The notes under the pieces are model-generated. The model did not search any database. It saw nothing but the letters and a program-made list of their open reading frames with translations, and was not told the DNA's origin. Below are positions 13,331 through 28,080 of a stretch of DNA of 64,000 bases, piece after piece. Position numbers and translations under genes: made by a program. Origin of the DNA: Polaribacter atrinae (GTDB lineage Bacteria > Bacteroidota > Bacteroidia > Flavobacteriales > Flavobacteriaceae); contig NZ_CP150660.1 in assembly GCF_038023995.1 (NCBI RefSeq), positions 3,160,501-3,224,500 on the forward strand, given 5' to 3'. Each line of letters begins with the position of its first letter. Within the stretch, counting starts at the first letter, position 1.

Positions 13331-13528
13331 ATGGTTAAAAAAATTACTTTTTTACTAGTGATAATTTTTACGGTTCCGGCATTAGGATTTAGTCAAGCTA
13401 TTCCTACTCCTGCAGGACCGCCACCTCCACCCGGGTTGCCTATAGATAATTTATTAGGTATTTTGTTTTTAATAAGTTTAGGAATAATATACGGATCTAA
13501 AAAGATTCTTAAAGATAGTAGTAGTTAG
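13331..13528 (+). CDS. Small PID-CTERM-like secreted protein
   Basis: A 65-residue protein with a cleavable signal peptide (about 1-22, ending GFSQA), a short proline/glycine-rich stretch (residues 24-37, including five prolines in a row) and then GLPIDN, a hydrophobic helix (about 40-55) and a lysine-containing tail (GSKKILK). The Pro-rich linker, PID, hydrophobic helix and basic tail match my recollection of the PID-CTERM sorting-signal family of Flavobacteriia, which resembles exosortase-type C-terminal signals. The mature part is only about 15 residues long. No sortase gene is in the window. Confidence 0.6.
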   Translation: MVKKITFLLVIIFTVPALGFSQAIPTPAGPPPPPGLPIDNLLGILFLISLGIIYGSKKILKDSSS

Positions 13529-13783: not shown

Positions 13784-14362
13784 TTAGCGCATAAATTTAT
13801 AGAGAAGAAATAAAAAGAAATCGTCACCTTTAAAAGCTTTTCGTATTTTTTTAAACGCAGTATTCATATGAGACTCTACTGTTTTTACGGATATGTCTAA
13901 TTGGTCTGCTATTTCTTTGTATTTGAGTCCTTGAAACTTATCCATTTGTAAAATCTCTTTACACTTATCTGGCAAAGCATCAACTACAACCTTTAATTAT
14001 AAAATACGCAGTTCTATTATTTCGTCATCATCATTAATTCGATCTCTTAAAGCACGTTCTTTAATTTCATCAAAAAAACTTTCTTTATGCTTTTGTTTTC
14101 TATAGGTATCTATATAGCTATTGTGGGTAATTCGGTATAGATAACTTTTAATCGATTTTTTAGAATCTATTTTTTTTCTAGTAGTCCATAATGTTATAAA
14201 GGTTTGTTGTACGATGTCTTCTGCCTCTTGTAGATTACCTGTAAAAGTGAAAGCATAGTCTACAAGTTTTTTATAATAGCGGTCAAATAGTATATGAAAT
14301 GCTTTTTCATCATTTTTTTTAATATTATCAGCTAGCAATGAGTCGTCTAGAGAATTTTTCAA
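13784..14362 (-). pseudogene. ECF-type sigma-70 factor interrupted by an in-frame TAA
   Basis: One frame runs from the ATG at 14362 to 13784 and would give 192 residues, the usual length of a Bacteroidota ECF sigma factor, but a TAA stop lies at 13997-13999. Before it are region 2 features (FDRYYKKLVDYAFTF, AEDIVQQTFITLW and YLYRITHNSYIDTYR). After it, in the same frame, come ALPDKCKEI and the region 4 helix-turn-helix GLKYKEIADQLDISVKTVESH. A single base change from GAA, CAA or AAA would explain the stop. Such factors activate the neighbouring TonB receptor operon when released by FecR. A sequencing error or readthrough remains possible. Confidence 0.85.
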
Positions 14363-14483: not shown

Positions 14484-15644
14484 TTGAAGAAAATAATTAT
14501 AAAATATATAGCCAATACAATTACCAACTTAGAATTAGAAGAGCTGAAGTTGTGGTTAAAAGAAGAAAAAAATCAAAAGACTTTTGAACAATATATAAAA
14601 GCTTCTTATGATATTGATACAATAATGAATAAACCAGATCTAGATGCAGCTTATAAAAAATTAAGGCAAACTTTAGATGCGAAACAGAAATCAAAAGTAA
14701 GAATTCTACCTATTTGGTCTAAATATGCTGCTGCTGCAGTAGTTGTTTTTATGTTTTCTTATCTGTATACGTTTTACAATCAAGAACAACAGACAGAAGA
14801 GGTTTTAAACACTTTTGTAACCACGGTAACTTCTGGTGTAGATAAAGCAACTCTAACGTTAGATGATGGTTCTGATATCATTTTAGAAGAAGGTAAAACA
14901 TATACCAACAATTCTGTAGCAAGTAATGGAGAAGAGATTGTGTATAAGGTTGAAGAAGAAATTACACCTAATAAAACAGGAGCTAAAACAATTGCATATA
15001 ATTATTTAACGACACCAAGAGGAGGCGAGTTTCATGTAGTTTTAGCAGATGGTACAGAAGTTTGGTTAAATTCTGAAACTAAATTAAAATATCCTACTTT
15101 TTTTAAAGAAGGAGAATCTCGTAAGGTAGAACTTGTTTATGGGGAAGCTTATTTTGATGTGTCGTCTAGTAAAAATCATCATGGAGCAACTTTTAAAGTG
15201 CTGTCTAATTTACAAGAAGTAGAAGTACTGGGAACCGAATTTAATATAAAATCCTATAAAGACGAAACTAGCATTTATACAACGTTGGCAGAAGGTAAAG
15301 TAGCTGTAAGCAATAATAGTTTTAAAGAGAACTTAGTAGTTGGTGAGCAATCTGTTTTAAACAAAACAACTGGTGATATAGCTGTTAAAACAGTAAATAT
15401 TTATAATGAAACAGCTTGGAAATCGGGTGTTTTTTCTTTTAAGAATAAGTCTTTAAAAGAAATTATGAAGGTTTTATCTAGATGGTATGATGTTGATATT
15501 GTTTTTGAAAACAAAAAACTTGAAACAATTAAGTTCAATGGTATTTTAAGTAGAAAAATGACACTCGAAGAAATTTTAATACCTATTAAAAGAAATGTCA
15601 ATTTAAATTACAAAGTAGATAATTATAAAATAATTATAAAATAA
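14484..15644 (+). CDS. FecR-family anti-sigma factor
   Basis: The 386-residue protein has a cytoplasmic N-terminal part (about 1-79) for sigma binding, one membrane helix at about 80-98 (KYAAAAVVVFMFSYLY), a periplasmic FecR domain (TTPRGGEFHVVLADGTEVWLN near 177-197, then GEAYFDVSS) and a C-terminal DUF4974 domain (about 315-386) that contacts the receptor signalling domain. The start is a TTG at 14484 with AAGAGG upstream. It is divergent from the interrupted sigma gene and directly upstream of an STN-containing receptor, the classical FecI/FecR/FecA-like layout. Confidence 0.93.
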   Translation: MKKIIIKYIANTITNLELEELKLWLKEEKNQKTFEQYIKASYDIDTIMNKPDLDAAYKKLRQTLDAKQKSKVRILPIWSKYAAAAVVVFMFSYLYTFYNQEQQTEEVLNTFVTTVTSGVDKATLTLDDGSDIILEEGKTYTNNSVASNGEEIVYKVEEEITPNKTGAKTIAYNYLTTPRGGEFHVVLADGTEVWLNSETKLKYPTFFKEGESRKVELVYGEAYFDVSSSKNHHGATFKVLSNLQEVEVLGTEFNIKSYKDETSIYTTLAEGKVAVSNNSFKENLVVGEQSVLNKTTGDIAVKTVNIYNETAWKSGVFSFKNKSLKEIMKVLSRWYDVDIVFENKKLETIKFNGILSRKMTLEEILIPIKRNVNLNYKVDNYKIIIK

Positions 15645-15648
15645 AAAA

Positions 15649-15690
15649 GGGACGAAGTAAATACCGCTCAAAGTACTCTAGCTTCATCCC
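15649..15690 (+). promoter_or_regulatory. Hairpin between the fecR-like gene and the receptor gene
   Basis: GGGACGAAG and CTTCATCCC pair with one mismatch around a 24-nt loop. No T tract follows, so it may stabilise or separate the downstream transcript rather than terminate. Confidence 0.35.
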
Positions 15691-15735
15691 CCATTAAATA
15701 TTAATTAAAAAGTTTAACTAATAGTTTACAAATTT

Positions 15736-18678
15736 ATGAAAATTAATTTTACTCAAGAGTGGCTCAAAAAGCAAACTCAAACTTTAATTATGAGGACAGT
15801 ATTTTTATTATTTTGTTCTACAGTATTTAGTTTTACTTCTATAGACGTAATCTCTCAGAATGCGGAAATTAAAATAAAGAAGGAAATAACCGTAACTGTC
15901 GATCAAATCTTTGACATTATTCAAGCGCAAACAGATTATACTTTTATTTATCGTTCAGATATGTTTAGAGGATTGCCTCCAGTACACTTAAATGAAGGTG
16001 TTATAAAGGCAAATAGGTTGTTATTATATGCAATACCTAAAAGGTATTATAGTTTCGAATTGTTTAAAGACAATACGATTGTAATAGAAAAAAGACCAAC
16101 TTCTCGAAAAGTAGAAATAAGAGGTCAAATTGTTGATGTAAATAACGAGCCATTGGCAGATGTTAATGTAATCGTAGCAGATTTAAACTTAGGAACTTTT
16201 ACAAATAATAAAGGGGAGTTCTCTATGGAATTACCTCATAAAAATTTTAAGATAACGATAAGTCTTTTAGGATTTAAAACTGTAGAGTTCGATTTAAGAA
16301 CTCAACAAGATTTATCAAATATCAACATAACTTTAAAGGAAGATTTATTAGGGTTAGATGAGGTTGTGGTTGTTGCAAAAAAAACGATAAGTAGAGAAGG
16401 AAGTTCTACTTATAAAATAGGAAGTCAGGCAATAAAACAGGTTCAGGCAATGAATTTATCTGATGTGTTAAGTTTGCTTCCTGGTAATAAAATAGAGCAG
16501 TCTAATTTAACAACAAAAAAGCAAGCCAATATACGAAGTGCTGTCACTTCAAATTCTAATTCTTTTGGTACGGCAGTTATTTTAGATGGAGCTGCAATTA
16601 GTACAGATGCTAATATGCAAGCAAGAAATTCATCAACTTTAGATGGAGGTAAATCTGTTGTTGGTGGTGGTGTAGATTTAAGAAGTATCACCTTAGCAAA
16701 TGTAGAATCTGTAGAAGTTATTGCAGGTGTAGCTTCTCCTAAATATGGTAATTTATCTTCCGGAGGAATTTTAGTAAAAAGTAAAGTTGGTAAATCACCT
16801 TATATCGTATCTACAAATGTAACGTCTACCAATTATCAAGCATCGGTAGCAAAAGGGTATGAGTTAAACGATTTTGGAGTTTTAAATACAGATTTATCGT
16901 ATGCTTATTCTTCGGGTTCACCAACAGAACGTAAATTATTTTACCAAAGTTTTAACTTAGGATTGCGTTGGAAATTACCAGTTTTTAAAGGTTTAAAATG
17001 GAATCATTTTACATCATTTAGAGTTGGGCATTCAGATGATGGAAATCGTCATGAACCAGAAGAAGTTTTTAAAAACGATGCAGATGTTAAAAGTACTTCT
17101 TATCAATTAACGTTATCTGGAGATTTTTCTTCATCCGTTTTAGGGAAAATAAATTATAATTTTAGTGGAAATGTTGTAAACCAACACTCTTTTTATGATA
17201 CTTATATTATTAATGGTCCTTTTCCTATAATAGAATCATTAGACAGTGGTACTTATAATACTACTTATTCTCCTAGTGCCTTTAATCAAATAAGAGATAT
17301 AGAGGGAAAACCAATAAATATCAATGGAAGAATTGATGCTTCTCAAAATGCTAGTTTTAGAAATTTAGACTTCAATTTTGAAACAGGTTTACAGTATTCT
17401 TTTGATGATAATACGGGTAATGGTAGAGTTGCAACAGGAAATATTGTACATACCCAAGATGTTGCAGGAAGTAGATCTGCAACTTTTGAGAAAATTCCGG
17501 CTTCTAAAACATTTTCTGCTTATCATCAAACAATTATAAAACGTACGGGAGAAGCCTCTAAACAACAATTAAATTTAGGGCTCAGGTATGATTATATGTT
17601 GGAGCGTTATAATTTAGTATCTCCAAGAATGTCGTTTTCATCAAAACATAATGATTTTACAGCAAAAGTTGCTTGGGGAGTTTCTTATAAAGCGCCAGCA
17701 ATGATTCAGTTATATCCTGGTAAATCATATATAGATTATATTAATTTTCAATACTATGCAGAAAATCCTGATGAACGTTTAGCGGTAGTAACTACGTATG
17801 TGTATCAACCTACTAATGAACATTTAAATCCAAATTATTCTGATTTAAAAGAAGTTGGGTTCGATTGGGCTCCTTCTTTTATGAATTTCAATTTTACGTA
17901 TTTTAAAAAAGAAATGCGTAGAGGAATAAACACGACAGATGAGTTGTTATTGTTGCCTAAAGCTGTTTACGAAGTAGTTAGTGCGCCTACAGGAGAGCAA
18001 CCAACTGTAGCGCCTACAGGAGAAGTAAACAACATTCCTAGAACGGTAAAAGTGATGAATAATAATTATTACGAATCTACAGATGGTCTAGAGGTTACTT
18101 TGAGTCCGCAGAAAATAAAAGCAACAAACACTCAATTTAATTTTAGATACAGTTATTTAGAAAGTGTAGTAACAGACAAAGGTTTTGATATTAATAAGTC
18201 TAATTATGTTGTAGGTGATAATTCTGTAAGATATGGTGTCTATGAAAACTCTTTAATAAAGGCAGTTAGAAGTTTCGGTACCTTAACACTAATACAACAT
18301 ATACCTGCTTTACGATTTGTTTTAACCCTTTCTGCAGAACTAAACTTTAAAGAAAGTAGCAAATATATAGGAGCAAGTTTATATCCATTTGCATATTATG
18401 ATGTTAGCGGAAACTATATTGATATTCCTTTAGAAGACAGAGCTAATGCAGAATTTAGTGACTTAAAAAAAGACGAAAACTCTTTTACAACAACAGCAAC
18501 TCCATTTTATAGCAATTTTAATTTACAGATACGTAAAGAATCTAAGCAAGGTCATTCGTTTAGTTTTTATGCAAATAATGCTCCTTGGAACAACCCAACT
18601 TATGAGTTTTTAGGAAGTAGAAGAAAATTGAATAATAAAATATCTGTAGGCTTTAATGTAACCTTATTAATTAAATAG
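15736..18678 (+). CDS. TonB-dependent receptor with STN signalling domain
   Basis: The 980-residue protein has an extended N-terminus and signal region (1-41), an STN (secretin/TonB N-terminal) domain at about 48-118 (TVTVDQIFDIIQAQTDYTFIY), a carboxypeptidase-like regulatory domain at about 128-210 (VEIRGQIVDVNNEPLADVNV), then plug (EVVVVAKK, LSDVLSLLPGNKI) and barrel. STN domains interact with FecR across the periplasm, so this receptor is the likely sensor of the locus. It is not of the SusC subtype. The following genes encode two surface-type proteins and two peptidases, suggesting a protein, peptide or metal-complex substrate, but nothing in the sequence names it. Confidence 0.94.
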   Translation: MKINFTQEWLKKQTQTLIMRTVFLLFCSTVFSFTSIDVISQNAEIKIKKEITVTVDQIFDIIQAQTDYTFIYRSDMFRGLPPVHLNEGVIKANRLLLYAIPKRYYSFELFKDNTIVIEKRPTSRKVEIRGQIVDVNNEPLADVNVIVADLNLGTFTNNKGEFSMELPHKNFKITISLLGFKTVEFDLRTQQDLSNINITLKEDLLGLDEVVVVAKKTISREGSSTYKIGSQAIKQVQAMNLSDVLSLLPGNKIEQSNLTTKKQANIRSAVTSNSNSFGTAVILDGAAISTDANMQARNSSTLDGGKSVVGGGVDLRSITLANVESVEVIAGVASPKYGNLSSGGILVKSKVGKSPYIVSTNVTSTNYQASVAKGYELNDFGVLNTDLSYAYSSGSPTERKLFYQSFNLGLRWKLPVFKGLKWNHFTSFRVGHSDDGNRHEPEEVFKNDADVKSTSYQLTLSGDFSSSVLGKINYNFSGNVVNQHSFYDTYIINGPFPIIESLDSGTYNTTYSPSAFNQIRDIEGKPININGRIDASQNASFRNLDFNFETGLQYSFDDNTGNGRVATGNIVHTQDVAGSRSATFEKIPASKTFSAYHQTIIKRTGEASKQQLNLGLRYDYMLERYNLVSPRMSFSSKHNDFTAKVAWGVSYKAPAMIQLYPGKSYIDYINFQYYAENPDERLAVVTTYVYQPTNEHLNPNYSDLKEVGFDWAPSFMNFNFTYFKKEMRRGINTTDELLLLPKAVYEVVSAPTGEQPTVAPTGEVNNIPRTVKVMNNNYYESTDGLEVTLSPQKIKATNTQFNFRYSYLESVVTDKGFDINKSNYVVGDNSVRYGVYENSLIKAVRSFGTLTLIQHIPALRFVLTLSAELNFKESSKYIGASLYPFAYYDVSGNYIDIPLEDRANAEFSDLKKDENSFTTTATPFYSNFNLQIRKESKQGHSFSFYANNAPWNNPTYEFLGSRRKLNNKISVGFNVTLLIK

Positions 18679-18718
18679 TAACCAAATAAAAATAAATCAA
18701 TAACCGTAAAACAAAAAC

Positions 18719-19960
18719 ATGAAACAAACAATTTTAAAACGAGTAGGATTAACAAAATTAATCGCATTATTTCTGTTAATATCAGTAGCAATTAGTTGTG
18801 ATAGTGAAGATGATATTCCTAATTTAGGAAATTTAGAAGTTCAAGTTACATTGGCAAGTGGTCTTAATGATATTTCTTTAGCAGATATAGATGTAACTAT
18901 TACGCAGACTGTAGATAACTCTACTTTAATTATGAATACAGATGCTAATGGTTTAGCTACTTTTTCTGATATTTCAATTGGAACTTACACTGTAGTTGTA
19001 GCACATGCAACAGAAGATTATACGTTAAGTGGTACTGCAAATAATGTTACAGTTACAAGACAAGAAACTGTTGCAACATCTGTAGAAGTAAATGCAGTTA
19101 ATCAAGACGGAGGATTGGTAATTAAAGAAGTTTATACAGCTGGGTCTGGTTACATTACTTTATTTAAAGATTCGTTTGTAGAGATTTTCAATAATTCATC
19201 AGAGACTTTATATGCAGATGGTATGTATATCGCTAATTTATTTGGTGGTTCAGGAGCTACAGGAGACACATCAGTGTATACTGTATTAACAGATACAGAT
19301 TATGTATACACAGATGTAATGAGTCAAATACCAGGTTCAGGTACAGATTACCCTGTAGAAGCAGGTAAAAGTATTGTAATTGCTTTAAACGCTATCAATT
19401 TTAAAGAAGGAAGTATAGCGCCAGATGCACAATTAGATAATACAGATGCTACCTTAGAGCATTATTCTGTAGATTGGTTAGAAGCACAAGGACGTGCAGG
19501 TAATGCTTTCTTTGAGCTTGACAATCCAGCGGTACCAAACATGACGAATATTTATATGTTTGAAGGAACTAATTTCTTTAGATTATCAACACCAGCAAGT
19601 ATTGTTTTAGTTAGTGCTGATGTTACTTTTGATACTTCAGGCGTTGTAGATTATACAGCACCAGGATCTACAAGTACTTCTAAATTAATGAAAATTTCTA
19701 TTGAAAATGTAGTTGATGGTGTAGATATTTTAGATAATTCTGGAGCTGCAGATTTTAAACGTATGCCTTCTTCTTTAGATGCAGGATATAGTTATTTAAC
19801 TGCTGATGGAGCAATTTCTTATACAGGATTAAGTTCTAGAAGAAAAGTTGATGAAGTAGCAACTGCTCGTTTTGGTAGAACTATTTTATTAGACACAAAT
19901 AATTCAACAGTAGATTTTGAAGCAATTGCTTTCCCAGATAAATATGGTTACAATAATTAA
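18719..19960 (+). CDS. DUF4876 domain lipoprotein
   Basis: The 413-residue protein has a signal peptide with cysteine at the cleavage site (AISC, about residue 27), so it is probably a surface lipoprotein. It starts with a beta-rich repeat-like domain (NLEVQVTLASGLNDISLADI, then NGLATFSDISIGTY), then a lamin-tail-like segment (EVYTAGSGY and FVEIFNNSSETLYADGMYI). This matches DUF4876, found next to TonB receptors in Bacteroidota. A role in capturing the substrate for the receptor is likely but inferred. The next gene starts before this one ends (17-base overlap with the assigned start). Confidence 0.85.
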   Translation: MKQTILKRVGLTKLIALFLLISVAISCDSEDDIPNLGNLEVQVTLASGLNDISLADIDVTITQTVDNSTLIMNTDANGLATFSDISIGTYTVVVAHATEDYTLSGTANNVTVTRQETVATSVEVNAVNQDGGLVIKEVYTAGSGYITLFKDSFVEIFNNSSETLYADGMYIANLFGGSGATGDTSVYTVLTDTDYVYTDVMSQIPGSGTDYPVEAGKSIVIALNAINFKEGSIAPDAQLDNTDATLEHYSVDWLEAQGRAGNAFFELDNPAVPNMTNIYMFEGTNFFRLSTPASIVLVSADVTFDTSGVVDYTAPGSTSTSKLMKISIENVVDGVDILDNSGAADFKRMPSSLDAGYSYLTADGAISYTGLSSRRKVDEVATARFGRTILLDTNNSTVDFEAIAFPDKYGYNN

Positions 19961-21527
19961 TAAATTAAACCATGTAATAATAAAGAGAATGTTTTTAGCA
20001 TTCTCTTTATTGTTTTGTGTGTTCGGAACTTTTTCTCAAAAAGCAGCAACTATAGATAGTTTGTCTGTTATTGAGCGAGACTTTCAATTCGAGTTATTTA
20101 AAAACAGGTATTTTCAAATTCCGTCGTTAATCAATCAAGCGAATCTTGGTAAATTTTCTTACGGAGAAGCGAGGTATTTATATGGAGAAGGAAAATTAAG
20201 ACATCCGCAAGAATATAAAAAGCAAAACGGATTGTTTGCAAAGACCGCTTCTTTAGCAAATTTAGAAAATACAGATTGGACTTTTTATGGTAGTTTAGAA
20301 TATTTAAATACTAGAATTGAAGATGTAGAAAACAATTTAACTTATTGTATTACAGAGTATAACTCTCCTTATTACTTTTTTCAGAAAACAACAGGTTTGT
20401 GGAATCATCAGAATTATAATTTTGAAGTAAGTGCGGCTCATAAAGTAAATTCTAAACTTAGTTTAGGAGGATATTTAAATTATGATACCAATTTTTACTT
20501 TAGAAAAACTGATACTAGAAATGAGTTAACAGCTTTAAAGATTAATGGAAAATTATCTGCGAGTTATCAGTTTAACGAAAAACATTTACTTAGTGTTGCT
20601 TTAGGTACAGCGTTTTTTAAAACAGATTCAGAACTAGGAAACAAGTTTCCGGAAAACAATACAGAGCTTACTGCAAATTATTACTTAAACACAGGTTTAG
20701 GTTCTTATATAAAAAACATCGATAATGGTTTTGAAACCAAAAGAGTCATTCCTCAATTGCAATTACACTGGCTTTTTAAACAAAATAATTGGGATGTATC
20801 TGTAGAAAGTACTACCAAATATGGTGTTGAGCGATGGATTGATAAAAACATTGTAAGAGTAGAAGAGAATGATGAGTTAACCAAGTATAGTTTTTTAAAT
20901 CAAGAATTTAATGTTGTTTTTAATCAGTATCGTAAAAATAGCTTATTGTCAATAAATTTGAATGCGGAATATTTAAAAGGGAAAGGTAAAGTTTGGCAAG
21001 AAACAGGTGCGTATTATGCTAAAAACTTTAATGCTACAAACTATAATTTTAAAACTGAAGCAAACATTCTATTTTATAAACAATTATTAAATAAAGTAAG
21101 CTTGGGTATAAAATATGCTAATGTAGAGCAGTTAGATTTAAACTATGCCTATCAATTCGATTATCAATTTTTAGAGCCTACAGTAGCGCTAGGTTTGCAT
21201 AAAGATATTTTTACCAAAGTGGCATTTTTTACCAACCTTTCAGGGTTATATCATCATGTTATAGATATGCAACACGATCCTTTTGCGGCTAATAATATTT
21301 ACGTAGAATGGATTGGTAATAGCGTTGCAGATTATACGGGTACAAGTTCTTTTAATTTTAAGACCAAATTAGGTTTTGATGTAAAACTTAAAAATGAAAA
21401 TAAATTAGAATGTTCTATCACGGGAGATTATTGGAAAGCGACAACATTATCTAATGAAACAGTGAATTATGTGTCTAAAAACGATGATTACCTAAGCTTA
21501 GTTTTAGGGCTTAAATTGTACTTTTAA
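19944..21527 (+). CDS. DUF6850-like outer membrane beta-barrel protein
   Basis: A protein of about 527 residues with a signal peptide ending FGTFSQ and a body of alternating amphipathic strands (for example SVALGTAFFKTDSE and KLGFDVKLKNENKLECSITGDY) ending in Tyr-Phe, typical of an outer-membrane barrel. In Bacteroidota a DUF6850 barrel often follows a DUF4876 gene, and I assign this one by that pattern and its context. The start at 19944 gives a basic n-region (NKL, IIKR); 19917 and 19989 are alternatives. It may form a second pore or a receptor accessory. Confidence 0.8.
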   Translation: MVTIINKLNHVIIKRMFLAFSLLFCVFGTFSQKAATIDSLSVIERDFQFELFKNRYFQIPSLINQANLGKFSYGEARYLYGEGKLRHPQEYKKQNGLFAKTASLANLENTDWTFYGSLEYLNTRIEDVENNLTYCITEYNSPYYFFQKTTGLWNHQNYNFEVSAAHKVNSKLSLGGYLNYDTNFYFRKTDTRNELTALKINGKLSASYQFNEKHLLSVALGTAFFKTDSELGNKFPENNTELTANYYLNTGLGSYIKNIDNGFETKRVIPQLQLHWLFKQNNWDVSVESTTKYGVERWIDKNIVRVEENDELTKYSFLNQEFNVVFNQYRKNSLLSINLNAEYLKGKGKVWQETGAYYAKNFNATNYNFKTEANILFYKQLLNKVSLGIKYANVEQLDLNYAYQFDYQFLEPTVALGLHKDIFTKVAFFTNLSGLYHHVIDMQHDPFAANNIYVEWIGNSVADYTGTSSFNFKTKLGFDVKLKNENKLECSITGDYWKATTLSNETVNYVSKNDDYLSLVLGLKLYF

Positions 21528-21568
21528 TATGTTTTCTGTCCTAAAGAATTAATAACTTAAATATAAAA

Positions 21569-22885
21569 ATGAAACAGTTACTTAATCTAATGATCTTTTG
21601 TATTCCTCTTTTTATTTGGAGTCAAAAGATGGATAATGTTCATTTTGAAGAATATGATTTGGCAAACGGATTGCATGTTATTCTTCATAAAGATATAAAC
21701 GAACCTAATGTAATTGTTGGTACAAAATACCATGTAGGTTCTAAAAATGAAGAAATTGGCAAAACCGGGTACGCTCATTTTTACGAGCACCTTTTATTCC
21801 ATGGAACAAAAAATATCCCTCAAGGAGAATTAGAAAATATTATTTTAAATGCTGGTGGATATTGCAATGCGTACACCAATTACGATGTTACGTACTATTA
21901 TCAATTACTACCTGCTCACGAGTATAAATTAGGACTTTGGGTAGAGTCGGAAAGAATGTTACATCCCGTTATAACGCAAGAAGGAATTAATCGTGAACGA
22001 GAAATTGTGAAGGAAGAAAAACGAATGCGTTATGACAATAAACCATTAGGTAATTCTTATTTTGAAATGATGTCTAAAATGTTTTCTGATGAAACTTACG
22101 GGCACAATATGATTGGTTCTATGAACGATCTTAATGTGGCTTCTAAAGAAGATTTTGAGGCATTTTTTAAAACCTATTACATTCCTAATAATGCCTGTTT
22201 AGTAGTTTCTGGAAATATTAATATTAAAGAAACTAAAAAATGGATCAAACTTTATTTTAAAGACATTTCGAAAGGGAAAAAAATAAAAAGACCTAAGAAT
22301 TTTAATAGACTCTCAGGGCTCGAAAAACATACAGAAAGAACTGTAAAAGGTTTAAAAGAAGAATCTATAGTAATCGGGTATCCGTTAATGGCACAAAGTG
22401 ATGCAGATGCTCCAGCAATGCAGATAATAACGGCTATTTTATCTGGAGATAGCGATTATTCTTATTTTGAGAATCATCTAAATTTAAAACAAGACACCAT
22501 TATTAAGCGTATAAAAGCTTCTTCTGATTTTTGGGAAAAAGAAAGTACGTTACGGATAACTGCTACTGTTAAAAATAAAAATAGCGAGCCATATTTACTT
22601 CAAAAAATAGAGCAACAAATAGCGCTTTTAAAAAATACTCCTGTAGATACTACTTTATTACAAAAGGTTAAAAAGAAATTTGAATCTGCTTATGTAGACT
22701 ACTTTTATCATGCAGAAACATTTGCAGATAAAGTGAGTAATTATTACCATTTGTATCCTAAAACAACTGATATTAAAAGCCTGATAGAAAATTTTAATAA
22801 AGTTACAACTGATGATATTCAGCGTGTTGCTAAAAAATATTTAGATAAAAATAATAGCGTCGTAATTGTGTATCATCCAGAATAA
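21569..22885 (+). CDS. M16 family zinc peptidase (catalytic subunit)
   Basis: The 438-residue protein has a signal peptide (1-18, ending FIWSQ) and the inverted zinc motif HFYEH at residues 70-74 (ligands His70 and His74, catalytic Glu73). A further glutamate lies in REREIVKEEKRM, and NGYxxAYT-like NAGGYCNAYTNYDVTYY follows the motif. This is one M16 half-unit. Active M16 enzymes close around small unfolded proteins or peptides. It probably acts in the periplasm. The next gene codes for a partner lacking the zinc motif, so the two may form a heterodimer. Confidence 0.93.
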   Translation: MKQLLNLMIFCIPLFIWSQKMDNVHFEEYDLANGLHVILHKDINEPNVIVGTKYHVGSKNEEIGKTGYAHFYEHLLFHGTKNIPQGELENIILNAGGYCNAYTNYDVTYYYQLLPAHEYKLGLWVESERMLHPVITQEGINREREIVKEEKRMRYDNKPLGNSYFEMMSKMFSDETYGHNMIGSMNDLNVASKEDFEAFFKTYYIPNNACLVVSGNINIKETKKWIKLYFKDISKGKKIKRPKNFNRLSGLEKHTERTVKGLKEESIVIGYPLMAQSDADAPAMQIITAILSGDSDYSYFENHLNLKQDTIIKRIKASSDFWEKESTLRITATVKNKNSEPYLLQKIEQQIALLKNTPVDTTLLQKVKKKFESAYVDYFYHAETFADKVSNYYHLYPKTTDIKSLIENFNKVTTDDIQRVAKKYLDKNNSVVIVYHPE

Positions 22886-22895
22886 TTGATTAAAA

Positions 22896-24341
22896 ATGAA
22901 AAACATTTATATAGTACTTTTCGCTCTTTATTGCAGTTTTTCGTCTCTTGCACAAGTAGATCGTTCTATGCCGCCGGAAGCAGATGAACCTGTGAAATTA
23001 AATGTAGGTAAATTAATTCCTATAGAGTTAGAAAACGGACTTCGGGTTTATTTGGCTCCCGTAAAAGAGTACCCAAAATTCACCATTTCAGTAAATATTG
23101 AACTACCCGGTTATGATAAAGAATCAAGGTTAGCAGAAAAGAAAATTTTAAACAAAGCGTATTCAAGTAGGTTGTCAGAAAAATACCCTAATGGAGAAAT
23201 AGATTCCATTACTAGTTATTATGGTGCTATGTCTAATGCAAATATGTTTGGAGGTACTATAAAAGGGATGAAAGAAGATATAGATCCTTTATTAGAGGTA
23301 TATGTAGATGCTTTATTTCATCCAATTATTTCGGATGCCTATATAATCGAGAAGCAAAAAGATCAAGTAGAAAAAGAAGGTAAGGAAACAATAAAATTAC
23401 CTTTACGTAAAAAAGAGTTTTCAGTAGGAAAAGTTATCGACTCTTTACTATTTGGCAGTGAAGAGAAGGTTGTTGAAATTAAAAACAAGGCAATTGCAAA
23501 CTTTAAAGGTTTAACAATTAATGATGTTGAAAATTTTAAAAATGATAGAATTTTAGCCTATAATTCATTAATTGTAGTAGTTGGAGATTTTACAGAAAAA
23601 GAGTGTAAAGAATTAATGATGCGTTATTTTGGGAATTGGAAATCTGGAAAACCGTATGTTAAAGACAGTCCTTTAAATAAAAAAACTTCAATTATTAAAA
23701 GAAGGAAAATTGTAGTTGTAAATGCGCCAAATGCAGTTCAGTCAGATATTTCTTTTAGATGGCATTTAGGTGATGCACATACTTATTTTAAAGATGATAT
23801 TAAACTTGAGGTATTGAATGAAATTTTTGGTGCAAGTCAATTATCATATTTATATAAAAACTTACGAGAAGATAAAGGACTTTGTTATTTTATACGATCT
23901 TCTGTAGGCACATCCGCAGTAGGTGGTAGGGGATCTGTTTTTACAACGGTACGAAACGATCAAACAGCTTATGCGGTAGAGAATATTATTTTAGAAATGT
24001 TGCGATTAAGAAATGGAAAAGTAAGTACTTCTGATTTAAAAATAGCGAAAAATAGCTTAATAGGTAGTTACACACGGTCTTTAAATGCAATATCACCAAT
24101 TCCTTATATTACGTTTGCAATGCAAAAAGATGTATATCATCTTCCTGATGATTATTTACAAAGTAAGGTTGATAAATATTATGAGGTAAGTGTGGATGAT
24201 ATGATGGAGATGTCTCAAAAATATATAGATCCGTTTAAATCTGTGATATATATTAAAGGTAAAGTTTCTGAGTTAAAAGGTACTCTTGAGAAGTTTGGAG
24301 ATGTTTTGTACTTTGAAGAGAATGGGACTAGAATAGACTAA
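22896..24341 (+). CDS. M16 family peptidase-like protein lacking the zinc motif
   Basis: The 481-residue protein has a signal peptide (1-19, ending SLAQ) and the M16 fold, with the C-terminal half most recognisable (NEIFGASQLSYLYKNLREDKG, then CYFIRSSVG). Where the catalytic subunit has HFYEH, this one has a SRLAEKKILNKAY stretch with no HxxEH, so it is probably catalytically inactive. Paired active and inactive M16 chains form heterodimers, as in mitochondrial processing peptidase. It lies 10 bases after the active gene, so co-translation is likely. It ends the operon before a terminator. Confidence 0.9.
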   Translation: MKNIYIVLFALYCSFSSLAQVDRSMPPEADEPVKLNVGKLIPIELENGLRVYLAPVKEYPKFTISVNIELPGYDKESRLAEKKILNKAYSSRLSEKYPNGEIDSITSYYGAMSNANMFGGTIKGMKEDIDPLLEVYVDALFHPIISDAYIIEKQKDQVEKEGKETIKLPLRKKEFSVGKVIDSLLFGSEEKVVEIKNKAIANFKGLTINDVENFKNDRILAYNSLIVVVGDFTEKECKELMMRYFGNWKSGKPYVKDSPLNKKTSIIKRRKIVVVNAPNAVQSDISFRWHLGDAHTYFKDDIKLEVLNEIFGASQLSYLYKNLREDKGLCYFIRSSVGTSAVGGRGSVFTTVRNDQTAYAVENIILEMLRLRNGKVSTSDLKIAKNSLIGSYTRSLNAISPIPYITFAMQKDVYHLPDDYLQSKVDKYYEVSVDDMMEMSQKYIDPFKSVIYIKGKVSELKGTLEKFGDVLYFEENGTRID

Positions 24342-24433: not shown

Positions 24434-25317
24434 TTAGTTTTCTGTTTGTGTCATATTATCTGCAACTACAATTATATAATTAGCAATACTTGCTTTTTCT
24501 TCGGGTGTTAATTTACTCCATTCAGATACTGTTACCGTTGTAATTGATTTTAAGGTTAAACCTGGCTGAATTTTATGAACCCACCAAATAATTCCTTGTT
24601 GGTAGTTAGAGTGGTAAGAGCCTTCTATGTGAAGTAGTAAATCTCCTTTTTTAAAGTTTTTAAGAGAAAAATGCGCCATTGTAGCATCTTTTGCTGCTTG
24701 GGCAGTTTGTATATTTAACATATTTGGTGGTACATGACCACCCATATTATCGGCCATTTCTGCATACGCTTTTACGGTAGGGTCAAAATAGGTTTCTAAA
24801 TCAGGACCAATTAAAGCTAATGCTTCTGGGCTTAATTCTTTTAAAGCATTTATTCCTTTTTTACTAATTAAAGAAGCATATCTTCTAGGAATATTGGTTG
24901 CAATAAAACGAAGTTTGTTTTCTTTTGCAAATTCAACTAAAGGTCTATAATCTGTGTCATAGTTGTTCCACATTTGTGTCATTTCAGGAAGCATTTTACT
25001 TTCTGGATACAATCCTGATAAATATTCATTTAAAACAAATTGATTTCCGCTTTCTAACATTTCTGCTCCAAAAAATAAAGAATCTCCTTAATATCAAACA
25101 AATTTTTACTTACTTCTAGTTGCAACCAATGTGCAATAGGATTGTAATGGTATTCGCCAAAAAATACCATATCGCTATCTGCAAGATCTTTAATCATTTT
25201 ATCATAATTAGCAACTTTTCCATCGCTTTTAAATAATTGATATGCAGGCTTATTTTGAGCTTTCGTGGTATTGATAAAAGAGGTTAATAAGAAACTAATA
25301 AGTAGTAAGTATTTCAT
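24434..25317 (-). pseudogene. ChaN-like haem-binding protein gene with a single-base frameshift
   Basis: The N-terminal part (from the ATG at 25317) has a signal peptide and the GEYHYNPIAHWLQLEV motif of the ChaN/Tiki superfamily. The C-terminal part (24434-25060) continues in another frame with AEMLESGNQFVLNEYLSG and later HIEGSYHSNYQQGI. The frame is lost near 25088. Restoring one A in the AA of ATTAAGGAG (plus-strand CCTTAAT) would read FDIKGDSLFFGAEMLES, the expected family sequence. ChaN proteins bind haem and are iron-regulated lipoproteins. A sequencing error in a short A run is as likely as a real loss. Confidence 0.8.
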
Positions 25318-27660: not shown

Positions 27661-27988
27661 TGCCAATATGACTTAAGTTTTCTTTTTGGAGTAATAACGA
27701 TTTTAATACGTCTTTTTTAATGCTGTTATTTTTGGGAAGTCATGTGATGAAATCAATTGGTTGTTTGTTGTAATATTAAAAAGACCTGCAGTAACTGGTT
27801 TTTAAGATGGTTTTGTTATTTCTTAAGTAAAAGGGTTTACAGTTATTGATTCATTCAAGCTATACGTAACAATCAACCACATTGTGTATCGTATTCTATT
27901 TTAATATTGTTTCTCATTTCTTAGAAGTAATTGTTTTGGGTATTTAAAAATACTGAACTCTTTGTTTTTTAAGGGGGCTGTTTTTTTT

Positions 27989-28080
27989 GCGTTAGGGATA
28001 GAGGTGGTATCCTTTTTTAATTTTAGCGATAGCAAAAATTTAAAAAGATATAACGGATAGCCCGACCTTTGGTAACGCCC
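27989..28080 (+). ncRNA. Candidate structured RNA, possibly Flavo-1-like
   Basis: The block starts GCGTTAGGGATAGAGG and ends TAACGCCC. The ends GCGTTA and TAACGC pair, and inside is a long hairpin (TATCCTTTTT... and ...AAAAAGATATA, with ATTTT/AAAAT near a GCGATAGC loop), then ACGGATAGCCCGACC. I recall this layout (GCGTTAGGGAT..., hairpin, GGATAGCCCG...ACGCCC) as a recurring intergenic element of Flavobacteria, and it may be the published Flavo-1 motif. The fold is directly visible; the identity and strand are inference. Confidence 0.5.

Follow-up and report, generated by a model that had tools for sequence, protein, structure and literature searches.

The Fus systems (FusA-FusC, YddB-PqqL), surveyed in Proteobacteria, are known to import a whole protein as an iron source across the outer membrane; in them a TonB receptor is encoded beside an M16 peptidase with an HxxEH motif, and their distribution is scattered (survey excerpts, PMC6793856). 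In the same excerpts, FusC was recorded in 12 of 24 sequence clusters of FusA-type receptors, and clusters without FusC carried a cytochrome c peroxidase in multiple cases (PMC6793856). An operon of Polaribacter atrinae was compared here with these and other described systems. It lies in a 64-kb stretch (the window) of a 4.01-Mb single-contig genome and encodes a FecR anti-sigma factor, a TonB-dependent receptor, a DUF4876 lipoprotein, a DUF6850 outer-membrane β-barrel and two M16 chains (M16A and M16B). The receptor beside an M16 peptidase with HxxEH and the scattered distribution are shared with the Fus systems; unlike these, the operon adds a surface lipoprotein, a second barrel, a ChaN-like gene and FecR/sigma components.

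DUF4876-TonB loci have been described in Bacteroidales (PG1019-22 of Porphyromonas gingivalis; BT3625-33 and BT1933-39 of Bacteroides thetaiotaomicron), where a DUF4876 lipoprotein is listed with a TonB receptor as in the window and the two B. thetaiotaomicron loci have PepSY/ABC or HEAT-repeat partners (tabulated excerpts, PMC10434189). A split M16 pair plus ChaN mark the clade studied here. A DUF4876 relative has been solved (BT_1938, PDB 4q1z), and DUF6850 was found nearby in nine Bacteroidales samples of the BNR/HEAT type. Two-chain M16 peptidases (PDB 3amj, 'zinc peptidase active subunit', the other chain being presumably an inactive partner) resemble the window pair in having adjacent genes and a zinc motif in one chain only; unlike them, the window pair is embedded in a receptor operon and stands apart from the other pair of its own genome. 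FecIRA-type signalling shares with the window an extracytoplasmic function (ECF) sigma factor, FecR and a receptor with an N-terminal signalling-like extension; unlike FecIRA, the window sigma gene is divergent and contains a stop, and six Bacteroidales-type loci have sigma and two small genes without FecR. Campylobacter ChaN (Cj0177) and the ChaN-like gene of the window share the PF04187 family and a profile match to PDB 2g5g. By its gene number, Cj0177 adjoins the outer-membrane siderophore receptor gene Cj0178 (excerpt of PMC6338021). No report of such an operon was found among the literature matches listed.

Conservation of the operon and its core

FecR through M16B are encoded on a single strand, separated in succession by 91 nt, 40 nt, an overlap, 41 nt and 10 nt (Table 1), a spacing that argues for co-transcription of the predicted operon. 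A Pfam scan of 10 open reading frames (ORFs) of the window recovered the genes that an earlier note on this DNA had named, and their positions. The DUF4876 protein was 89% identical to the copy of Polaribacter staleyi, and FecR was 76-78% identical to the FecR proteins of three relatives (L105-L107).

DUF4876 was present in 6 of 116 genomes of the genus sample, 10 of 149 of the family sample and 29 of 296 of the phylum sample, the own genome being counted each time. For the comparison of gene neighbourhoods, 121 loci were assembled: the window, 80 named loci (biased to near kin, because the best 80 of 225 relatives were taken) and 40 loci from the genome samples, a set that is not random. The sampled loci comprised 5 from 5 other genus genomes with a match, 5 from 4 of 9 other family-sample genomes with a match, and 30 from 27 of 28 other phylum-sample genomes with a match (G409 left out); several sampled genomes had two or more such places, of which a single one was used. 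L114 is the same locus as L037, and flanks in some loci stop at contig ends.

Receptor and DUF6850 were each present in 78 of the first 81 loci, and both stood beside DUF4876 in the 40 further loci (L141 with three ORFs between). The three genes are consecutive in the window, with DUF4876 and DUF6850 both scoring above the Pfam cut-off, which places it among the DUF4876/DUF6850 receptor loci, and this TonB-DUF4876-DUF6850 core is widespread; relatives were also present in Gemmatimonadota, Ignavibacteriota and Balneolota records.

The earlier note had read the operon as an import-and-cleave system, and the co-occurrence on which that reading depended was borne out: receptor, DUF4876, DUF6850 and a split M16 pair were found together in 20 loci of several genera and orders (the window's genus, Formosa, Maribacter, Pseudozobellia, Rikenellaceae, Marinilabiliaceae and others). 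ChaN accompanied the pair in 19 of the 20, being broken in the window and missing from L106. Gene order was M16A-M16B-ChaN in Flavobacteriaceae and ChaN-M16A-M16B in Bacteroidales-type loci, and all genes of the operon were present in Formosa algae (L024) and Maribacter thermophilus (L022). Because it recurs in other genera and orders, the arrangement is more than chance. The operon is real and conserved, and it is most likely one functional unit.

Partner genes and the M16 pair

Partner genes were counted from five genes upstream to six downstream of DUF4876. A di-haem CCP/MauG peroxidase was near the core in 44 of 121 loci (one with HEAT too), a family termed here LP280 in 27 (including Gemmatimonadota) and M16 in 27 (M16 with ChaN, 19; M16 alone, 4; M16 with BNR or HEAT, 4). 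The remaining loci had BNR (5), HEAT and BNR (2), HEAT (1), ChaN alone (1) or none of these (14). M16 and the peroxidase occurred together in none of the 121 loci; within the genus sample, four genomes were of the M16 type and two of the peroxidase type (L108, L109). M16 or peroxidase as alternative partner is the choice also recorded for Fus clusters (excerpts of PMC6793856).

LP280 proteins are about 280 aa long, and three members were without a Pfam match (L038:12737-13582, L054:12786-13751 and L045:12422-13612). Nine Bacteroidales loci (L136-L144) carried BNR-repeat and HEAT-repeat proteins near DUF6850, some with a full-length M16, and a Por_Secre_tail domain was present on both BNR-repeat proteins scanned.

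Trees of DUF4876 (121 rows) and of M16 were built by a quick method, and long branches were flagged in both. In the DUF4876 tree, 24 of 28 rows with M16 or ChaN formed an exclusive clade (Shimodaira-Hasegawa-like approximate likelihood ratio test, SH-aLRT, 99). A 44-row clade (100) held 40 of the 44 peroxidase rows plus four partnerless rows, the other four peroxidase rows lying elsewhere, and all 27 LP280 rows fell inside a 36-row clade (96) with nine rows of other kinds. In the M16 tree, M16A and M16B of the split pairs formed one clade of 20 each, separate from the second M16 pair that this genome carries; full-length M16 proteins had their halves placed elsewhere. Full-length single-chain M16 proteins (929-938 aa) were encoded directly upstream of the receptor in L026 and L037/L114. 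By these trees, the partner gene beside the core largely tracks the lineage of the lipoprotein, and M16 types that differ from one another seem to have joined the core separately.

The M16 chains of the split pairs are about 440 and 480 aa long. HxxEH was present in 20 of 20 M16A chains and in 0 of 20 M16B chains. Searched with a strict pattern, 18 of 20 M16B chains, including that of the window, showed R....GL.Y (the exceptions being L024 and L028); the R/Y motif presumably has a role in M16 partner chains. The closest PDB kin of M16A were 4nnz, 5euf and the active subunit 3amj_C, followed among others by mitochondrial processing peptidases and PqqL, the latter a lower match (E 4e-16 and 1e-15) than 4nnz and 3amj. 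An active/inactive pair had been suspected at this position, and the window chains agreed: the first has the motif at residue 70, and the second has R....GL.Y in its absence. M16A and M16B thus fit a predicted catalytic/non-catalytic pair. FusC and PqqL are single chains of two halves; unlike them, the M16 of the window is two separate chains, the single-chain form being that of L026 and L037.

The best clue that the enzymes process the cargo of the receptor is that the two alternatives of the Fus type recur beside an unlike receptor. Alternatively, the M16 pair and ChaN might serve general clean-up in the periplasm, being carried along in a nutrient-uptake operon without acting on its ligand. 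M16 genes occur often (six M16_C matches in five genes of this genome), and the core is without M16 in most loci; against this, the operon pair is set apart from the second M16 pair in the genome and different M16 types stand beside one core. The clean-up explanation is considered very unlikely.

Receptor, ChaN and the predicted cargo

A profile was built from 31 receptors and searched against the PDB. The best matches were FepA/PfeA (E ~1e-23), with Cir, SusC and BtuB also matched and the haem receptors ShuA and PhuR matched more weakly. At the sequence level, 0 of the 27 PDB chains listed was named a ferredoxin receptor, and neither a TonB-protein nor an ABC match of the FusB or FusD type was found among the 10 window ORFs scanned. 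Membership in the Fus family was rejected on these grounds (matches to FepA/PfeA/Cir/SusC/BtuB, two-chain M16, no FusB or FusD types found). Of the likeness to FusA/FusC proposed earlier, the logic was therefore retained (M16 with a receptor, the choice of M16 or peroxidase) and kinship was not, the receptor not being FusA-like and the M16 being two-chain; Fus-like logic with other parts is the best reading of the gene content.

The receptor had also been described as STN-bearing. It is a TonB receptor, and Pfam STN was not found in it at E<=1; its N-terminal extension, together with those of four kin, matched the STN-bearing extensions of FecR-linked receptors (hhalign 83%, E 9e-6). Receptors near FecR were 980-1042 aa long in 15 of 16 cases and receptors without FecR were at least 980 aa long in 4 of 97, a difference that fits a signalling extension. 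In DUF4876, Cys27 was invariant in 25 of 25 aligned copies; in the window the stretch behind this lipid cysteine is acidic (CDSEDD), like the surface-export signal of Bacteroidota. In such signals, acidic residues come after one that is polar or positive (excerpt of PMC5080379). For DUF6850, the AlphaFold model of the L107 copy (88% identical to that of the window; predicted local distance difference test, pLDDT, 88.5) had 18 long strands by our own DSSP count; its fold matches were unspecific, and a TonB plug was not matched in DUF6850.

ChaN matched the PF04187 family profile, kept many invariant residues across 20 copies and matched PDB 2g5g (E 6e-11), which we take to be Campylobacter ChaN. 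Most operon copies have, by eye, a cleavable rather than a lipoprotein signal. The C-terminal stretch of the window copy shared 84% identity with the ChaN encoded behind M16B in the corresponding operon of an uncultured Formosa. Of 247 class-sample genomes, 102 had a ChaN match. To view ChaN outside the operon, 20 genomes were picked from the other 101, for the most part those that matched best, and in the fetched stretches a core gene was present in 0 of 20 and an M16 piece in 1 of 20. Linkage to M16 is no general habit of ChaN. The ChaN-like gene that had been noted as a neighbour is thus present, and by its conservation is to be counted as part of the module, convergent and broken in frame in this strain. 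With the sigma gene and ChaN belonging to the picture, the observation is larger than first noted. In L028, a second ChaN gene (16969-17832) lies behind M16B; the ChaN tree placed the two copies far apart.

Evidence on iron comes from relatives. Under low iron, PG1019-22 rose 20.8-214.5-fold, BT3625-33 rose 38.1-128.1-fold and another B. thetaiotaomicron locus 3.5-7.4-fold (tabulated excerpts, PMC10434189). A P. gingivalis DUF4876 gene was among the genes strongly changed with hemin level (excerpt of PMC10470040), the P. gingivalis pair is tabulated in an oxidative-stress study (excerpt of PMC10101095), and Campylobacter ChaN was placed in a Fur-repressed group and considered potentially involved in iron acquisition (excerpt of PMC2772861). 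The operon is probably relevant to iron, by analogy with expression in relatives that are not among the rows of the DUF4876 tree.

The operon may encode a TonB-dependent, ligand-sensing import-and-process system whose likeliest cargo would be iron held in or carried by a polypeptide, a reading for which we consider the balance about even. The polypeptide nature of the ligand is presumed, and import of a protein is plausible. Gene content, motifs, conservation and the hairpin are observed; we infer the following steps of transport, sensing, cleavage, cofactor handling and dosage. The surface lipoprotein DUF4876 and the receptor would capture the ligand outside the cell. The receptor would bring it into the periplasm on TonB energy, and its STN-like extension would signal the presence of ligand to FecR and the ECF sigma factor. 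M16A and M16B would then cut the polypeptide, M16A by zinc catalysis and M16B by binding substrate, and ChaN would receive or act on the freed haem or iron. DUF6850 would be a second outer-membrane barrel, dosed differently from the receptor via a hairpin in its start region (described below).

Several observations weigh against this reading. The M16 rows L136, L138, L141 and L143 fell outside the 24-row clade, in a nine-row Bacteroidales clade, and the M16 piece of L138 is encoded on the opposite strand; in L025 ChaN occurs with no M16 in the run, and in L106 the pair occurs with no ChaN. The core does not need M16, because 94 of 121 loci had none near. The expression data are those of two species, P. 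gingivalis and B. thetaiotaomicron, with DUF4876 proteins that are not among the rows of the tree, and the receptor profile is closest to siderophore receptors. The role of ChaN need not be tied to import, because ChaN is common with no core gene nearby and because the ChaN of L165, one of the 20 loci viewed elsewhere, groups with the flavobacterial operon copies.

The receptor matches also bear on a second explanation, in which the same machinery would take up a small peptide-type metallophore (modified or non-ribosomal, for iron or copper) and the M16 pair would open a peptide of a few residues and free the metal. FepA/PfeA-type siderophore receptors are the closest matches, the two-chain 3amj is among the best PDB kin of the M16 pair, FecR/sigma signalling is usual for siderophore receptors, and the di-haem peroxidase that 44 of 121 loci carry next to the core is reminiscent of methanobactin loci. 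The iron and hemin responses of the relatives are equally compatible with it. No positive pointer to such a ligand was found, biosynthesis genes not having been searched for, and this explanation is judged unlikely.

Uptake of haem, or of haem from haemoproteins, was weighed on the ChaN and hemin evidence. Receptor and lipoprotein would strip the haem, ChaN would carry it in the periplasm, and the M16 pair would do no more than clear haemoprotein fragments or leader peptides. ChaN in 19 of 20 split-pair loci and its match to 2g5g, the hemin-level response of P. gingivalis (excerpt of PMC10470040) and the weaker matches to ShuA and PhuR are consistent with this; against it, ChaN genes outside such operons are widespread and an HmuY-type Pfam domain was not matched among the 10 window ORFs scanned. 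Haem uptake as such is regarded as distinctly unlikely.

Processing of an iron-bearing polypeptide is preferred here. In an extended form it is put forward tentatively, as possible rather than probable: a modular Bacteroidota system of receptor, surface lipoprotein and second barrel would accept different periplasmic processing enzymes (a single-chain M16, a di-haem peroxidase, or the M16 pair together with ChaN), would import whole small iron proteins and strip their cofactor, and would have reached the enzyme choices of the Fus systems by convergence. For the flavobacterial clade, iron proteins of marine algae are a natural guess as cargo. If this holds, a Bacteroidota parallel built of other parts would suggest that import of whole proteins for iron arose more than once; DUF4876 and DUF6850, families of unknown function, would gain a meaning; genes strongly induced under low iron in gut and oral Bacteroidales would be touched by it; and the enzyme beside the core should predict the way in which the cargo is opened.

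Junction hairpin and flanking genes

An RNA hairpin of 18 pairs (z -6.4) begins 16 nt past the DUF4876 stop and covers the first DUF6850 codons; this junction hairpin is a new observation. It was kept in 10 flavobacterial split-pair loci (related and partly coding rows), with 97.2% of 180 cells paired and three pairs changed on both sides. Paired cells, both-side-changed cells and the covariation score each exceeded all 500 shuffles. The numbers of both-side-changed pairs and of pair types were not exceptional, being reached by 166 and 137 of 500 shuffles. In a survey with 40 shuffles each, the 100-nt stretch from the DUF4876 end had z < -3 in 45 of 117 loci, and the same test gave 3 of 116 for the stretch behind the receptor and 1 of 117 for that behind DUF6850. 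Junction hairpins recur in several subfamilies and are unlike in sequence between lineages, and a comparably strong one was not found in L027, L034, L037 and L137. The hairpin likely sets the dose of receptor and lipoprotein against that of barrel and enzymes.

Table 1. Positions of the operon genes, the junction hairpin and the flanking genes in the window.
Feature	Position	Strand	Basis and remarks
ECF sigma-70 factor gene, in-frame stop	13787..14362	-	Sigma70_r2, E 3e-18; divergent from FecR; lower end approximate
FecR anti-sigma factor	14484..15644	+	Pfam FecR, FecR_C; TTG start as listed, start uncertain
TonB-dependent outer-membrane receptor	15736..18678	+	Pfam CarbopepD_reg_2 and Plug; STN-like N-terminal extension, ~residues 45-121
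DUF4876 lipoprotein	18719..19960	+	PF16215, E 4e-26
DUF6850 outer-membrane β-barrel	19917..21527	+	PF21012, E 3e-60; start uncertain
RNA hairpin, 18 pairs	19976..20014	+	DUF4876/DUF6850 junction
M16A, predicted catalytic chain	21569..22885	+	Peptidase_M16 and M16_C; HFYEH at residue 70; signal peptide by eye
M16B, predicted partner chain	22896..24341	+	M16_C only; signal peptide by eye; start possibly 22866
ChaN-like (PF04187) gene, broken in frame	24437..25317	-	Pfam on both pieces; convergent with M16B

The sigma and ChaN genes of the window are broken as read, and a sequencing error is possible for either. The open stretch of the sigma gene (13997-14362) contains region 2, and the intact 191-192 aa copies of L105-L107 aligned across the stop at 77-82% identity (tblastn). 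Compared with the intact copies in L105 and L107, the ChaN pieces fall into frames -1 and -2. In these two relatives sigma and ChaN are both intact and arranged as in the window; in L106 sigma is intact and ChaN is not present behind M16B. Because both genes are broken, sensing and the last processing step are possibly impaired in the window strain.

The sigma gene is divergent in the window's genus and co-directional in Formosa, Maribacter and Pseudozobellia. In Bacteroidales-type M16 loci (L027, L029-L031, L033, L035), two small genes of about 103 and 168 aa replace FecR after sigma, and the L027 pair was without a Pfam match.

A small ORF of about 65 aa at 13331-13528 (+) has, by eye, a signal-like start, a proline-rich stretch and a hydrophobic segment. 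A Flavo-1 RNA (RF01705, 55.4 bits) was found at 27984-28071 (+), between a cation-exchanger-like gene and an opposite-strand gene that resembles glutamine synthetase by eye.

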